Assembly: GCA_944391115.1 (NCBI GenBank)
Contig: CALXSJ010000009.1
Span: 1 to 64,000, forward strand
Direction: 5' to 3'
From: an uncultured Victivallales bacterium
GTDB lineage: Bacteria > Verrucomicrobiota > Lentisphaeria > Victivallales > UBA1829
Length of the DNA stretch: 64,000 nucleotides
Shown here: piece after piece, positions 1 through 63,397 of the stretch
Numbering within the stretch: the stretch's first letter is position 1
Layout: each line of letters starts with the position of its first letter
Notes under the pieces: model-generated
What the model was told of the DNA's origin: nothing
What the model saw: the letters and a program-made list of their open reading frames with translations, nothing else
The model's database searches: none
Position numbers and translations under genes: made by a program

Positions 1-114
1 CGAAAAATGCTCGCGCATTTTTCCGTAATGAAAAAAAGTGAAGCCTCCCTGCCGCGCTCCACCTGCGCAAGCCGGACGAAATCCCCGAGACCACGGTGCT
101 CCACACCGGGGCAG
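1..114 (+). repeat. Composite hairpin repeat, copy A (partial)
   Basis: The left edge of the window carries part of a repeat also found at 28551-28860 and 61288-61582. Bases 2-10 and 15-23 form a 9-bp stem (GAAAAATGC / GCATTTTTC) around the loop TCGC. The stem is identical in all three copies and the loop is not. Bases 43-75 match the CTGCGCAAGCCGG block. Bases 81-114 match the block at 28827-28860, including ATCCCCGA and CACCGGG. The A/T hairpin present in the other copies is missing here. Further parts may lie left of the window. It sits about 115 bp upstream of iorA. Confidence 0.75.
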
Positions 115-27472: not shown

Positions 27473-28507
27473 TCAAAGCGCGTTCTTCCGTCCGCCGACG
27501 GTGATTTCGCTCTTCCAGTAATGGGCGATCTTGTCAACCACATTCTGCGGCATCGGGACATAGTGCATCTTCGCGGCCGTCGCGCGTCCGGACTTGAAAC
27601 ACCATTTGAAATAATCGAGCATCGCCCGGGCCTCCGCCGCGTTTTTCTGATCGCGGTGAATCAGGATGTAGGTGACGCCGACGATCGGCCAGCTGTCGTG
27701 TCCGGGCTGGTCGGTAAGCATCTGGCGGAATCCTTCTTCCGCTTTCCAGTCCGCGTGCGCGGCCGCCGCGGAAAACGCTTTGCTGTCCGCACTGACGAAT
27801 TTTCCCTCGCGGTTTTTCAGCATCACGACCGGAATACGGTATTCCGCAGCGAACGTGTATTCTGTGTAGCCGATCGCTCCGCGGCTCTTCCGGACCATGT
27901 TGCAAACGCCGGGATTCTTGCTGCCGCCGATGCCGGCGGGCCACTTCACATCGGAACCCGCGCCGACTTTCTCCGCCCATTCGCGGGAGACTTTCGCAAG
28001 GTAGTCCGTGAAGATGTAAGTCGTTCCGGAACTGTCGCTTCTGTGGACAACGGTGATTTTCAGCTTCGGAAGACGCAGTCCCGGATTGAGCGCGGCGATC
28101 CGCGGATCGCTCCAGTTCGTGATTTTGCCGAGGAAGATGTCCGCAAGAACCTGCGCATCCAGTTTCAGCTGATTGTTCTTCACGCCCGGCAGATTGCAGA
28201 TCGGCACCACGCCGCCGCTGAGCATCGGGAACTGAAGCAGTCCCGCCTTGCTGAGTTCAGAAATTTCCAGCGGTTTGTCGCTTCCGCCGAAATTCGCGGT
28301 TCCCGCCTTGATCTGATTGATTCCGGCGCCCGATCCGAGCGGCTGGTAGTTGACTCGGACATTCTTTTTGACATTGCTGAATCCGTAGGTCCAAACCCGG
28401 TAGACGGGTGCGGGGAACGAGGCCCCGACGCCGTTGACGGTGATTTCCGCGGCATCCGCGCATAATGCGAGTCCCATTGCCGCGACTGCGAGTGTTTGTT
28501 TCAACAT
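27473..28507 (-). CDS. pstS: Phosphate ABC transporter, periplasmic phosphate-binding protein
   Basis: 344 aa with a signal peptide (MLKQTLAVAAMGLALCADA). The mature part begins ITVNGVGASFPAPVY. Phosphate-site segments are visible: GSGAGINQI near residue 57, DKPLE near residue 77, HRSDSSGTT near residue 155 and GAIGYTEY near residue 208. It captures phosphate for PstCAB. An AAGGAG site sits six bases before the start at 28507. First gene of the operon. I saw no clear PhoB box in the short AT-rich stretch between the start and repeat copy B. Confidence 0.96.
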   Translation of the reverse strand: MLKQTLAVAAMGLALCADAAEITVNGVGASFPAPVYRVWTYGFSNVKKNVRVNYQPLGSGAGINQIKAGTANFGGSDKPLEISELSKAGLLQFPMLSGGVVPICNLPGVKNNQLKLDAQVLADIFLGKITNWSDPRIAALNPGLRLPKLKITVVHRSDSSGTTYIFTDYLAKVSREWAEKVGAGSDVKWPAGIGGSKNPGVCNMVRKSRGAIGYTEYTFAAEYRIPVVMLKNREGKFVSADSKAFSAAAAHADWKAEEGFRQMLTDQPGHDSWPIVGVTYILIHRDQKNAAEARAMLDYFKWCFKSGRATAAKMHYVPMPQNVVDKIAHYWKSEITVGGRKNAL

Positions 28508-28550
28508 CTTGTTTCTCCTTTTTTGATTTTCAAAAAAATTAGTTAACAGT

Positions 28551-28860
28551 GCGATGCCCGGCATCGCCAAAAATGCTTCGTGCTCTCCTCTCAGTCCTGC
28601 TGCGGACCAGCTGCGCAAGCCGGCTGCCGCAGGCGGATGATTTCGCGCGCTGCGCGACCAGCGTTTCGCCGCTGGAGCACGCCAAGGGCCGGAGGGCCCT
28701 TGACCCCGCGAAAAATGCTGACGCATTTTTCCGTAATAAAAAATAATTTGTTCTGCAAATTATGATTCGAGCTCTCCTTTCACTCCCCGTGCGGTCCAGC
28801 TGCGCAAGCCGGCTGCCGCAGGCGGCATCCCCGATATCCCGGCGCTCTGCACCGGGACAG
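28551..28860 (+). repeat. Composite hairpin repeat, copy B (about one and a half units)
   Basis: Fills the space between the pstS start and the stop of the secretin-like gene. From left to right it has an inverted repeat GCGATGCC-C-GGCATCGC (28551-28567); the TCGTGCTCTCC...GCGCAAGCCGG block; a stem CCAGCG/CGCTGG; a stem CAAGGGCC (28683-28690)/GGCCCTTG (28695-28702); a stem GAAAAATGC (28710-28718)/GCATTTTTC (28723-28731); a stem ATAATTTG (28743-28750)/CAAATTAT (28756-28763); then a second GCTCTCC...GCGCAAGCCGG block and the tail shared with copy A. Short frames over it have no protein likeness. It ends eight bases from the secretin stop codon. Confidence 0.85.
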
Positions 28861-28868
28861 TCTGCCGC

Positions 28869-30755
28869 TTAATACGTATCCCAGTCGGGCTTCTTGTCCG
28901 GATCGAGTCCCCACTGGCCGTAGCCGTAGGAGTTTTTCTCACCCGCGTCCCTGACCTTGGAGCGGATCACCTGAATGTCGGAACTGATGTTTTCCGGCAG
29001 CGGGCTGTCCGGACGGATCGTTTCACATTCCGCCACGACGACAAGCTGCGATTTCTTCGTCGATTCGCTCTCGGTCGAGAATGCCCAGCCGAGGAGCGGG
29101 ATGTCCTTGAGAATCGGAATGCCGCCCTGACCGCGGACCACGTCGAGCTTTTCAATGCCGCCGATGATGAAGCGGTTCTTCCGATTGCCGATCATGATGC
29201 GCGTGGTCAGCGGTTCAAGCTGCGACTGACGCGGCGTGCCGTCGGAGAGATACCCCATCAGCGTATTCGAGGAGAGGGAAACATCCAGAATTGTGGCATT
29301 CGCCGTGATCGACGGCGTCACGTCCATCCGGAAGAGATATCCGCCGGCGATCCCCTCCTCGATCTTGAATCCGCCATCGGAATCAAGCACGTTTTCCGCA
29401 CCCCAGGTGATTCCCGTGACGGAGGGAGAGACCACGACCTTCTTTCCGTATTCCTTCCCATCCTTGTAGAAGCGCGCGCCGTTGTGCGCGGTGAGAATCA
29501 CGCGGACGTCGCCGTTCGCATCCGCCGTCTTCGCCGCGCCGACCACCGCGTCCGCCGGGACGAGCGTCACCGCTTTTCCGTTGGAATCAACCATGTTCGC
29601 CACCGGCGTGACATTTCCGTTTTCATCATAGTTGTTCCCAAGCTGGAGCGAGAAGGAATTTCCGGTCTGTTCCCCCTGTTTTGCATAGACGATTCCGGTG
29701 TTTCTCGTGAGCGATCCGGTGCGATTGTTGCGGATTGAAAGCTCGCCTGCACAGGCAACCTTTCCCTTGCCTTTGGAAACCAGGAAATCGAGATAACGCG
29801 TATTCCACTTCGGGTTGAAGTTGAAATACTGGGAGTTGTTCGACCCGACATTCCGCTGAAGACCGCCGCCGAAGACCGCCGACCAGTTGTCACGATACCG
29901 CGCGCCGGTGCTGAAGAAATCCGCACCGTCGTTGTTCTTCCATGCCTGGAAATCTGCGCCGATCCGGCCGTCGTTTTCCGCGAAAATCTCGTAAATCATG
30001 TATTTTACGCGGACTTCCGGATGCGGCACGTCATAGAGCCGGAGCATGTCCTCGATGTTTTTCCGCGAATAGAGCGCGGTGTTGAAGAAGAGACAGTTCA
30101 ACCCCTTGTCCACGGCAACCTTGTCCTTTCCGCCGATCAGCTCCACCAGATCGTCGGACATGTTCGCGCCGACGTTCCGGATCATGGTGTTGAGCTCGCC
30201 CGCCGGACGGTTCGCCGGGAAATAAACGTATTTAGGCTGTCCCGAGGAGTTCCGCATCCCCGGCTTGTCGAGAAAGGCGACGATCGAGTCGATCCCCATG
30301 CCGTTGGGAGAATCCCTGAAACGGTATTCCTCGGCCGAGACGATCAGCGCGCCGGTCCCGTCCGCGAACTTGACGCACTCGACACCGGCGGGAACCGCAA
30401 TGCCGCTTTTCGTGCGGTAGATGTTGTAATAGTTGTGAGGCTGATCCGGATCGTCGCCGTCCTTGTAGTTCACTCGCAGCGCCTGAACCATCTCCCGGAG
30501 AAAGGGGCGGATCGAGTTCGGATCCGCATGCTTGAGGATATAGGTTTTCGTGATAATCTCGGGATCGTTGGTTTCGCGGATGAAATGAACCATTTCCGCG
30601 CCGTCTTTGATGTTCAGGCGGAGCTGCGCCTGCACCGCGGAGGGGAAGTAGGCGGGATTCGCGTTGCCGCTCGGCATTTCGTTGGCGGAGAGCATGCCCG
30701 CGCAGAGAGTTGCTCCGAGCATCGCAAGCGGACGAATTGAATTCATTGTTTTCAT
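28869..30755 (-). CDS. Secretin-like outer-membrane protein, divergent (628 aa)
   Basis: It has a signal peptide (residues 1 to about 24). Early segments resemble secretin N-domains (TKTYILKHADPNSIRPFLREM near residue 69). The C-terminal third has the secretin pattern: TPSITANATILDVSLSS near residue 470, TTRIMIGNRKNRFIIGGI, and GGIPILKDIPLLGWAF near residue 562, followed by a strand ending in LVVVAECE. It is a paralogue of the protein encoded directly upstream at 30776-32269; both share an IYEI...ADF/YxAWKN motif. Neither looks like a standard GspD or PilQ, and no other secretion or pilus gene is nearby. A gated outer-membrane pore is the best guess. Confidence 0.65.
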   Translation of the reverse strand: MKTMNSIRPLAMLGATLCAGMLSANEMPSGNANPAYFPSAVQAQLRLNIKDGAEMVHFIRETNDPEIITKTYILKHADPNSIRPFLREMVQALRVNYKDGDDPDQPHNYYNIYRTKSGIAVPAGVECVKFADGTGALIVSAEEYRFRDSPNGMGIDSIVAFLDKPGMRNSSGQPKYVYFPANRPAGELNTMIRNVGANMSDDLVELIGGKDKVAVDKGLNCLFFNTALYSRKNIEDMLRLYDVPHPEVRVKYMIYEIFAENDGRIGADFQAWKNNDGADFFSTGARYRDNWSAVFGGGLQRNVGSNNSQYFNFNPKWNTRYLDFLVSKGKGKVACAGELSIRNNRTGSLTRNTGIVYAKQGEQTGNSFSLQLGNNYDENGNVTPVANMVDSNGKAVTLVPADAVVGAAKTADANGDVRVILTAHNGARFYKDGKEYGKKVVVSPSVTGITWGAENVLDSDGGFKIEEGIAGGYLFRMDVTPSITANATILDVSLSSNTLMGYLSDGTPRQSQLEPLTTRIMIGNRKNRFIIGGIEKLDVVRGQGGIPILKDIPLLGWAFSTESESTKKSQLVVVAECETIRPDSPLPENISSDIQVIRSKVRDAGEKNSYGYGQWGLDPDKKPDWDTY

Positions 30756-59898: not shown

Positions 59899-61253
59899 TG
59901 TTTCATTGCCTCCACCCATTGCGCCGCGGCATCCGGATTCGAGCCCAGATGAAGATGCGCATAGCTGCCGCAGACCGTGCCACGCAACGCTCCCGCGCTG
60001 GAAAAAACGGCAAGATGCCGGACATTCCGCGCCTCGAAAAGCTCTCCGGCCCCCTCTCCGGGAGATGCGCTCGAATAATGGAATTCGTGTCCGCGCAGAC
60101 ATGTCCCTTTCCGGAATACGGAATCGGACATGCAATGCAGCTCCCGATAGCCGAGAGACTGCAGACGGTCATTCATCTTCGCTTCGCCGGGAAGGAGTCC
60201 GAGCATGGAGTGACGCATTCCCTGAAAATCAGTCAGCGAATCCAGCAGATAGAGATACCCGCCGCATTCGCCGTAAATCCATTTGCCCTGTGCGGCGCAT
60301 GCCCGGACCGATTCCAGCATGGAATGATTTTCCGCAAGCTGCGCGCCGTAAAGTTCCGGAAAACCGCCGCCGAAATAAACGCCGTCGATGTTTTCCGGCA
60401 GGGCATCATCGTGCAGCGGAGAAAAATCGACAAGTTCCGCGCCGGCGTTCCGCAGAAGGCGGAAATTGTCTTCGTAATAGAAGCAGAACGCCTCGTCGCG
60501 GGCGACCGCGAGCCGGACAGATGCGGGGGGAAACGCGTCCTGCCCGTCGCCGTCCCCGTCAGGACGCTCCACGGCATCGGACGCCGCGGAAAGAAGCGCA
60601 TCCAGGTTCATTTCCTCCTCGACGGCATCCGCCAGAGCGTCAAGCCAGACGTCCGAAACGCTGTTCCATGACAATCCGAGATGCCGTTCGGGAAGTTTCC
60701 ACTTCGGATTGCGCCGCAGAGTCCCGATCAGGGGCGGCAGATCCGCCGCCTTGAGCGCGTCGCGCAGAAGCAGGGCGTGTTCCGGCGAACCGGTGAACGC
60801 AGCGGCGACTCCGGCAATCCGGACTGTCGAACGCCATTCGGAAAATCCTTTCACCAGCGGCGCAATGGAGCCGGAAAGACCGCGCGCATTGACGGCAAGC
60901 AGAACGGGAAGATCAAGAAGCGAGGCGATTTCCGCGCTGCTTCCGGCGGTCGAGTCCGGACGGATGCCGTCATAGAGCCCCATCACGCCTTCGACGACGG
61001 CGACATCCGCATCGGCGAGGTTCGCGGAAAACGATTCGCGCACACCTTCCTGCCCCATCAGATAAGTATCCAGATTGATGGAGGGACGCCCTGCCGCCTG
61101 ACGGTGAAAAAAGGGATCGATGTAGTCCGGACCGCATTTGAACGGCGCGACGCGGAGACCGCGCCGGGTGAAGGCACGCATCAGAGCGAGAGCGAGCGTC
61201 GTTTTTCCGCTGCCGGAATTGACGCCGCCGATCAGAAACGCCGGTATTTTCAT
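59895..61253 (-). CDS. cbiA: Cobyrinate a,c-diamide synthase
   Basis: A 452-aa ATP- and glutamine-dependent amidase that makes cobyrinic acid a,c-diamide. The N-terminal dethiobiotin-synthetase-like half has the P-loop GVNSGSGKTTLALAL. The C-terminal glutaminase half has GVYFGGGFPELYGAQL near residue 312, the catalytic Cys in IYGECGGYLYLLDS near residue 347, and the closing His in YAHLHLGSNPDAA near residue 435. It starts 335 bases after the cbiFG stop; that space holds repeat copy C. Confidence 0.95.
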   Translation of the reverse strand: MKIPAFLIGGVNSGSGKTTLALALMRAFTRRGLRVAPFKCGPDYIDPFFHRQAAGRPSINLDTYLMGQEGVRESFSANLADADVAVVEGVMGLYDGIRPDSTAGSSAEIASLLDLPVLLAVNARGLSGSIAPLVKGFSEWRSTVRIAGVAAAFTGSPEHALLLRDALKAADLPPLIGTLRRNPKWKLPERHLGLSWNSVSDVWLDALADAVEEEMNLDALLSAASDAVERPDGDGDGQDAFPPASVRLAVARDEAFCFYYEDNFRLLRNAGAELVDFSPLHDDALPENIDGVYFGGGFPELYGAQLAENHSMLESVRACAAQGKWIYGECGGYLYLLDSLTDFQGMRHSMLGLLPGEAKMNDRLQSLGYRELHCMSDSVFRKGTCLRGHEFHYSSASPGEGAGELFEARNVRHLAVFSSAGALRGTVCGSYAHLHLGSNPDAAAQWVEAMKQ

Positions 61254-61287
61254 ATCATCTCCCCAAAAAATTTAAATATGCGCGCGA

Positions 61288-61582
61288 AGCTGCGCAATTA
61301 AAAAAATAATTTGCAAAGCAAATTATGATTCGTGCTCTCCTCTCAGTCCTGCCGCGGTCCAGCTGCGTAAGCTGGTCGTGCGGAGCACGAAACAAAAATT
61401 GCTGCGCAAAAAACTGCGGTCATTGCCTCAGAGAAAAATCCTTTTTTTTATTCTTTTCTTTTTTTTTATTTTCATTGCTGCGCAAGAAAATATTTCGCAG
61501 CTCCGCGCGACCAGCGTCTCGCCGCTGGACCGCGACAAGGGCCAACGGCCCTTGACCCCGAGAAAAATGCTCTGCATTTTTC
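61288..61582 (+). repeat. Composite hairpin repeat, copy C, inside the cobalamin operon
   Basis: Left to right it has a stem ATAATTTG (61306-61313)/CAAATTAT (61319-61326); the GATTCGTGCTCTCCTC block; CCAGCT-GCGTA-AGCTGG; an insert with two ATTGCTGCGCAA copies (61398-61409 and 61474-61485) flanking a pyrimidine tract; then the stem CCAGCG/CGCTGG, CAAGGGCC (61536-61543)/GGCCCTTG (61547-61554) and GAAAAATGC (61562-61570)/GCATTTTTC (61574-61582). The stems match copy B exactly and the loops do not. It ends six bases before the cbiFG stop codon. No protein can be supported in this space. Confidence 0.85.
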
Positions 61583-61588
61583 CGTTTC

Positions 61589-63397
61589 CTACAGGGCTGT
61601 TTTTTTCATCTGTCGCGCGACGGCGACCGTCACCGACCCGCAGACCGTCTTTCCCGTCACCAGAGCTGCGTCCTTCCCCGCCGCAAGCAGAGACGCCGCC
61701 TCCGAAACCGAATGGATGCCCAGATGTTTCATCGCATATTCCGAAGGATGCTCCACCTTCTGCGCATTCAACTTTTTCTTTGAGAAAAAACGCAGTTTCT
61801 TTCCCGTCTCGCGCGCAAATTCCAGCAATCCCTTCTCCTCTCTCTTGAGATCCGCGCTCGCAAAACCTTCCACGCAATCCATCAGAACCCCGGAGCGCTT
61901 CAGCACTTCCGCCACCGCCGCTCTCAACGCCGCAATGCCCGTTCCCTTCCGGCACCCGATCCCGAGGAAAAAACGCGGCGCCTCCATCCGGAGCACGGTT
62001 TCCGTTCCCGGAACTGAAACGGAAATATCACGGCTCTCCCCTCCAAAAACAATCCGTGCGTCATCCGCGTAGAAACGGTCATACAGCACGCGCGGCATCC
62101 TCACTTCCACACGCCCGTTTTCCAGCAGATGCGAACTCACCTTCAGGATCGCTCCCGGATTGCTCACGCGATAATGGAAGCGGGAGGCGAGCTCGTCGAA
62201 CGCCGTCATTCCGCGCACGTCGCTGGCGGTCGTCACGACCGCCTTTCCGCCCGTGATCCGCGCAACATCCGAAGCCAGACGGTTTGCGCCGCCGATGTGA
62301 CCGCTCAGCAGACTGACCGCATAGTCCCCGCGCTCGTCGCAGACCACCACCGCCGGATCCGATGTCTTGCTTCCGCACAACGGCGCGATATGCCTGACCA
62401 CAATGCCCGCCGCCATCACCATGACAAATCCGCGGTAAATCCCCCACGCCTGCGCAATCGCCTGTTTCGACCTTCCGTCCGGATAAATGACGCGGCGGTG
62501 TTCCGGAACAAGCGACGCATATTTTTCCGGCACGAACACATCGGCTTCCGTGAGCCCGGAAGCAATCTCCAGCGCCTTGGCGATTCCTTCGCGCGTCATG
62601 CCGAACACCGCGCATTTCCCCCGGAACGGCTCCGTTCCGGCAGCGGCGCGGTAACCGTGCGCAAAGTTGCGGTCGTAAAGAGACGAGAGTCCGCCCTGTT
62701 CGCGGTTCAGCGCCTTCCCGACCACGATCATCGCCTGACGCTTGATCCCGGCTTCCGCGACGCGTTCGGCAATATCCGCCAGCGTGCCGCGCACGATTTT
62801 CTCATTCTCCCAGCTTGCGCGGTAGACGACGGCAACCGGTGTATCCTCCGGACGGCCCGCCGCGCGCAGTTTTCCGATCAGCGCACGCATGTTCCCCGCG
62901 CTCAGGAAGATGCACATCGTGCAGTCATGCGCGGCAAGGGAGGGAAGCGCCTCCTTCTCCGGCACCGGCGTGCGGCCCGCGTCGCGGGTCATGATGACGC
63001 TCATGCTCAGTCCCGGCATCGTGTATTCCGTCTTCAGCGCGGCGGCCGCGGCGAACGCGCTGCTCACGCCGGGCACGACTTCATAGGGTATATCCTGTTT
63101 ATCCAGTTCGCGGTACTGCTCGGACACCGCCCCGTACATCGCGGGATCTCCGGTATGCAGACGCACCACACTCTTCCCCGCATGATACCCATTGCACAAC
63201 AGCGCAAGCACCTCATCCAGGGAAAGTTTCGCACTGTTGACCAGTTCCGCGTTCCGCGCGTAGTCCAGCAGTTTCTCATTCACCAGCGAACCGGCGTAAA
63301 CCACCAGGTCCGCACGCTTCAGCGCCTCCGCCCCGCGGACCGTAATCAGATCCGGCGCGCCGGGACCCGCGCCGACAAATGTAATTTTTCCGTTCAT
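61589..63397 (-). CDS. cbiFG: Fused cobalt-precorrin-4 methyltransferase and cobalt-precorrin-5A hydrolase
   Basis: 602 aa in two parts. Residues 1 to about 250 are CbiF/CobM: the SAM-binding GAGPGAPDLITVRGAEAL, VVRLHTGDPAMYGAV near residue 75 and MTRDAGRTPVPEKE near residue 137. Residues about 265-600 are CbiG: FGMTREGIAKALEIA, YRGFVMVMAAGIVVRHIAPLC near residue 345, SLLSGHIGGANRLA near residue 390 and a C-terminal FLGIGCRKGTG...VTGKTVCGSVTVA domain. They act at consecutive steps of the anaerobic corrin-ring pathway: C11 methylation, then ring-A lactone opening. The start at 63397 overlaps the upstream gene by four bases with AGGGG as ribosome site. Confidence 0.92.
   Translation of the reverse strand: MNGKITFVGAGPGAPDLITVRGAEALKRADLVVYAGSLVNEKLLDYARNAELVNSAKLSLDEVLALLCNGYHAGKSVVRLHTGDPAMYGAVSEQYRELDKQDIPYEVVPGVSSAFAAAAALKTEYTMPGLSMSVIMTRDAGRTPVPEKEALPSLAAHDCTMCIFLSAGNMRALIGKLRAAGRPEDTPVAVVYRASWENEKIVRGTLADIAERVAEAGIKRQAMIVVGKALNREQGGLSSLYDRNFAHGYRAAAGTEPFRGKCAVFGMTREGIAKALEIASGLTEADVFVPEKYASLVPEHRRVIYPDGRSKQAIAQAWGIYRGFVMVMAAGIVVRHIAPLCGSKTSDPAVVVCDERGDYAVSLLSGHIGGANRLASDVARITGGKAVVTTASDVRGMTAFDELASRFHYRVSNPGAILKVSSHLLENGRVEVRMPRVLYDRFYADDARIVFGGESRDISVSVPGTETVLRMEAPRFFLGIGCRKGTGIAALRAAVAEVLKRSGVLMDCVEGFASADLKREEKGLLEFARETGKKLRFFSKKKLNAQKVEHPSEYAMKHLGIHSVSEAASLLAAGKDAALVTGKTVCGSVTVAVARQMKKTAL

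Follow-up and report, generated by a model that had tools for sequence, protein, structure and literature searches.

A dispersed family of four-hairpin repeats in the order Victivallales, with hairpins that look to be maintained as DNA

The genome of this gut bacterium and those of its relatives carry dozens of copies of a repeat family that extends over the order. The window, by which we mean the whole 64-kb stretch that was analysed (bases 1-64000 of contig C9, in an assembly of 3.66 Mb and 44 contigs), holds it at three places, all of which are mosaics of one unit, here called M. This unit is ~95-97 nt long and runs from GATTTCG to CCGT through four hairpins in constant order: hp1 (TCGYGC/GCRCGA), hp2 (CCRGCG/CGCYGG), hp3 (CAAGGGYC/GRCCCTTG) and hp4 (GAARAATGC/GCATTYTTC, with CCGT after it). 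Our reading, to which we give a probability of roughly 0.6, is that M is a non-autonomous repeat, interspersed and palindromic in the manner of REP/BIME elements, and that its hairpins act and evolve as DNA.

A preliminary description of the window had reported stems that are identical between two or all three of these places and enclose differing loops, and all of these stems and loops were located in the sequence. The stems and the modules to which they belong are as follows.

2-23, 28710-28731 and 61562-61582: stem GAAAAATGC/GCATTTTTC (sequence)
28683-28702 and 61536-61554: stem CAAGGGCC/GGCCCTTG (sequence)
28658-28675 and 61511-61528: stem CCAGCG/CGCTGG (sequence)
28743-28763 and 61306-61326: stem ATAATTTG/CAAATTAT (sequence)
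1..25, plus strand: right end of an M that is truncated at the contig start, its hp4 lying at 2-23
26..114, minus strand: inverted module with the right end of a type A unit, after the cut M (sequence recurs at the C23 contig end, L057)
28551..28637, minus strand: inverted, diverged module that is the left part of type A, outer hairpin GCGATGC/GCATCGC (its reverse complement aligns to M)
28641..28734, plus strand: unit M, with hp1 at 28643-28657, hp2 at 28658-28675, hp3 at 28683-28702 and hp4 at 28710-28731 (alignment; covariance-model match of 106.5 bits)
28738..28825, minus strand: second inverted module, outer hairpin ATAATTTG/CAAATTAT at 28743-28763 (alignment)
28826..28866, no strand assigned: type A right end, hairpin CCCGGCGC/GCACCGGG at 28838-28856 (sequence comparison)
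61306..61390, minus strand: inverted module at the same locus as the second M, containing the hairpin at 61359-61375
61494..61585, plus strand: second copy of unit M, with hp2 at 61511-61528, hp3 at 61536-61554 and hp4 at 61562-61582, hp1 being degenerate (alignment; covariance-model match of 99.9 bits)

In the composite copies, the left module aligns with M when read on the opposite strand, and it is therefore an inverted, diverged M. The copy at 28551-28860 thus has the layout [inverted module]-[M]-[inverted module], in agreement with the cyclic module order and tandem joining proposed for it earlier, and tandem arrays were indeed found. It can be described as a type A unit (~150 nt, an inverted module with other outer ends, itself common, with ~50 matches per genome in two congeners) that contains an M and an inverted module: the orthologous site in the congener G018 has type A only, and lacks the 158 nt made up of M and the module at 28738..28825. 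The fold of the middle copy (330 nt) lies 3.8 (plus strand) and 5.2 (minus strand) s.d. under its shuffles. The copy at 1-114 is present as described, but its extent is set by the start of the contig and not by the element; since the window begins at base 1 of C9, this copy is truncated rather than short. Eight contigs of this genome (G000), namely C1, C9, C11, C20, C23, C24, C34 and C43, have ends within the repeat, and M explains the break points of these assemblies. The sequence at 1-25 of the window recurs at the end of C23, so that C9 and C23 may adjoin.

The repeat is dispersed genome-wide, as had been suspected. With the middle copy as BLAST query, 69 matches were found in its own genome, and a covariance model of M detected 82 (E <= 1e-5). 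The same model gave 59 and 124 matches in two congeners and 32-45 in genomes of a second genus; within one genus, the copies per genome range from 3 to 124. The 330-nt query matched 9 of the 36 genomes of the family, essentially those of genera g1 and g10. When the model search was extended to the phylum, as the preliminary description had recommended, 17 of 388 genomes had matches, all of them in this order and including the families f2 and f4; the multicopy matches in at least two families other than that of the present genome are weaker. A genome of family f2 (G325) had 55 matches once more candidates were scored, several of which are head-to-head inverted pairs. An exact 30-base pattern occurred in 102 stretches in the genomes of 84,980 species; among the matches listed, these belong to few assemblies, titled Victivallales, Lentisphaeria or just bacterium. 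Phages, plasmids and viral contigs yielded no matches to the element when searched, and a phage or plasmid origin was rejected on these searches. The papers that we searched on repeats in Victivallis or Lentisphaerota report no repeat family, and M adds a large one to an order that had none in that literature.

Genus g10 shows most clearly what the unit is. Here 65 distinct copies of M stand alone in unrelated contexts, and not one flanking column reaches 70% identity; the 50% mark is reached only by the GA-rich bases directly upstream of M and by a single T at +4. Sharp ends in so many unrelated contexts identify M as a discrete dispersed unit. In the genus of the present genome, M occurs solo, in tandem (C4:41432, C8:131001, C20:56214) or in inverted pairs, and the composites have an optional core of ~220 nt with hairpins of its own, of which 14 near-full copies were found, none enclosing a gene. 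The loop of hp2 is conserved between families, and the loops of the other hairpins are not. In one g10 contig (G034:C136, L071 1251-1600), the left arm of hp1, AAAAAAGATTTCGTGCTTCGC, precedes an M as a microsatellite of many repeats; a single hairpin arm seems to have expanded alone. In genome G222 of another family (L197), an M-like unit lies amid dense arrays of mini-hairpins, e.g., TGCCGTAAGGCA and CCGCCGGAGGC.

The stems of M covary strongly. Across 85 distinct copies from two genera, 97% of the pair cells are Watson-Crick, and intermediates between the common pair types are rare. The covariance model and covarying pairs called for in the preliminary description were obtained at two depths: in the two genera, 7 of the 29 pairs have changed on both sides, with 98.5% of cells paired, and across families, 23 of 29 have done so, with 96.4% paired. 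The cross-family covariation score was 0.419 against 0.118 in shuffled alignments (0 of 500 reached it), and slid controls were also far below; this alignment was fitted to the structure, so that its count leans, and the smaller, independent alignment of the two genera agrees with it. The loops of M vary freely, that of hp3 from 3 to 5 nt in length. Selection on one RNA strand is expected to tolerate G-U far more than A-C. Among 2464 cells, however, mismatches comprised 11 G-U and 15 A-C, and the ratio of G-U to A-C at orthologous sites was 8:6 and 4:6. With G-U no commoner than A-C, the pairing appears to be held at the DNA level and not in a single RNA strand, and M appears to be kept and propagated in the form of DNA hairpins, not of an RNA. 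Of the structural reading proposed earlier from the conserved stems, the conserved hairpins with free loops hold up, and the RNA form is not supported.

The same wobble counts weigh against the alternative that comes next in plausibility, which we consider unlikely: that M is a structured RNA or 3'-UTR element, co-transcribed with the upstream gene, with four hairpins that terminate transcription, influence mRNA stability or bind proteins. The strong covariation and the hp2 loop shared between families would suit it, as would the sequence CCGTTTTT at the end of some copies. So would the location of M, which is always intergenic (no copy lies within a called gene) and in part leans to gene 3' ends: gaps holding M are convergent in 27, same-direction in 32 and divergent in 7 cases, against 14, 34 and 15 among other gaps, where genes were called by an in-house scorer and the M copies are not independent of one another. 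Between tandem genes, however, M is oriented 20 to 12, a weak preference for an element read with its upstream gene. A terminator search (GC-rich stem and T run) found none at 28400-28950; at 61200-61700 it found two, a count no higher than in shuffles, neither of them M hairpins and none at the M of 61494-61585. Promoters and terminators showed no excess in the window regions, and a Rfam scan of the window gave no match above the curated threshold. The structured RNA offered in the preliminary description is therefore disfavoured. Its suggestion of an operon-boundary element is only weakly compatible with the data: M is always intergenic and leans to convergent gaps, but its orientation preference is slight.

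How the stems may stay perfect can be judged by comparing G000 with its congener G016, from which it differs by 10.5% at four-fold sites and 7.1% in intergenic DNA. In orthologous copies, the loops differ by 16%, more than four-fold sites (p about 5e-4), and the stems by 1.8-2.1%, less than intergenic DNA (p about 1e-15), although the stem change may be understated by up to two-fold, as the hairpins were chosen for being perfect in one genome. At 61359-61375, G000 has CCAGCTGCGTAAGCTGG and G016 has CCAGCGGCGAGACGCTGG, the latter being the exact reverse complement of hp2 of its own locus (61511-61528); apart from this swapped hairpin, nearly everything in the locus is identical. Likewise, at two loci the core hairpin GAACTTTTC...GAAAAGTTC has undergone an exact in-place inversion between G000 and G016, with loops AGC/GCT and CAGCA/TGCTG (L043/L122 and L050/L124). 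Loop inversion is not general: exact inversions occur in the core hairpin only, and the M loops keep their orientation. The in-place swaps and inversions are few events, and orthology within arrays is uncertain. Polymerase template switching yields both homogenised arms and inverted spacers (PMC8604942), and it has been put forward as a process that generates hairpins and keeps them intact (PMC8794818). Hairpins swapped or inverted in place are its signature.

Larger changes occur at orthologous sites as well. Arrays at orthologous sites differ in their number of units at C7:99088 (2 against 3) and C8:131001 (2 against 1). At C17:61894, G000 has an M that is absent from both G016 and G018, which suggests a gain. 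This partly answers the call for a comparison of empty sites: at this one usable site, ~40 nt of the flank also differs, and no target-site duplication can be read. Repeats are also present in the flanks of other M sites. Most tested sites are common to G000 and G016, so movement must be slow. On contig C1 of G000, ~16 kb (about 63650-79900) are missing from the matching position in G016; this segment adjoins the repeat at 80375 without being at it.

Such events could also be taken to mean that M is functionless, i.e., that template switching perfected palindromes of chance origin and recombination amplified them, without a dedicated enzyme or a recognition site. We hold this to be improbable, marginally more so than the RNA alternative. 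The template-switch signatures and the changing array copy numbers favour it, as does the lack of any linked enzyme in our searches. However, sharp ends in 65 unrelated contexts, together with a hairpin order and an hp2 loop kept in several families, call for a process that reads the unit in order to copy or select it.

The search for a mobilising enzyme found no transposase or other enzyme linked to the element, and no parent element. The sole Y1 match in G000 is a remnant IS200-type transposase gene with stops (C35:25416-25862), and a RAYT gene (Y1, PF01797) was found in none of G018, G033, G034, G172, G289, G325 and G378, these assemblies being 80-95% complete and broken at repeats. A RAYT/Y1 protein is not supported as the mobiliser: the distribution of the gene does not track the element, and several genomes rich in copies lack it or have only a broken one. 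Also discarded was an autonomous form in which a gene would lie between the core modules: the full cores are all about 200-231 nt and gene-free. Recurring neighbours of M, identified by eye as prepilin-like proteins, AraC and LacI-type regulators and an ABC-F protein, are probably just abundant.

Under the REP/BIME-like reading, M would move as one discrete unit into new sites between genes, and would then build tandem arrays and inverted pairs and gain further palindromic modules, giving mosaics like those of the window. The hairpins would arise while the DNA is single-stranded, with the lagging strand as the likeliest place. There, template switching by the polymerase, together with exchange among copies in inverted orientation, would perfect the stems and flip or swap hairpins while the loops drift. 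Single-stranded DNA hairpins would be the working form, copied by a putative enzyme, and hp2 would be the candidate recognition site, as the only hairpin with a loop conserved between families. More tentatively, a putative non-RAYT single-strand-DNA enzyme might recognise hp2 and copy the four-hairpin unit, in which case M would form a class of its own among hairpin-mobilised elements, one that has persisted order-wide while its stems drifted by hairpin-wise replacement. It is highly improbable that M is instead a binding-site array for a host-kept DNA-binding protein (nucleoid, gyrase or recombinase) with a chromosome function: conserved palindromic stems, many intergenic copies and the highly conserved hp2 would fit, but the free hp3 loop length (3 to 5 nt) and stem sequence argue against a dimer site with fixed spacing, and copy number varies from 3 to 124 within a genus.

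Whether perfect stems reflect selection on RNA or template switching in DNA is usually argued from few cases. The M family offers hundreds of related hairpins in which stems, loops and flanks can be compared side by side at known divergence, which makes the two separable; strong covariation by itself is no proof of a functional RNA.

Among the options of the preliminary description, a REP/MITE-like mobile element fits best, and its remark that the element matches no known repeat family holds, there being no Rfam match and no REP class by the defining tag. Like MITEs, M is small, non-coding, dispersed and variably present between relatives, but a solo M lacks terminal inverted repeats (its ends are GATTTCG and CCGT) and no parent element was found; the type A unit, unlike solo M, has inverted ends. 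The hairpin-forming repeats of organelle DNA, such as the repetitive hairpin-forming elements of sponges and the double-hairpin elements, are also intergenic chains of hairpins with conserved, compensated stems and variable loops (PMC2800124). Those are mitochondrial and unrelated in sequence, whereas M has four ordered hairpins and an hp2 loop conserved across bacterial families. REPs are intergenic palindromes that occur as singles, inverted pairs and clusters and are fewer in divergent gaps (PMC3116915, PMC3733652). M resembles REPs, REPINs and BIMEs in being made of short intergenic palindromes in many copies, fewer in divergent gaps, and in occurring as singles, head-to-head inverted pairs, tandem clusters and mosaics with other modules; the extragenic inverted pairs and mosaic clusters of REPINs and BIMEs are found in G000 and G325. 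It departs from them in that the dispersed, sharp-ended unit in g10 spans all four hairpins (~97 nt), as opposed to the single palindrome of 20-40 nt of a REP, in that the consensus of 94 M copies and their flanks has GA-TTTCG and CCGT ends in place of an unpaired GTAG or CGTC tag, and in that several of the copy-rich genomes lack RAYT, the partner of REPINs, or have it only in broken form. M is therefore a new family, which falls outside the defining tests for REPs and works like REP/BIME repeats.
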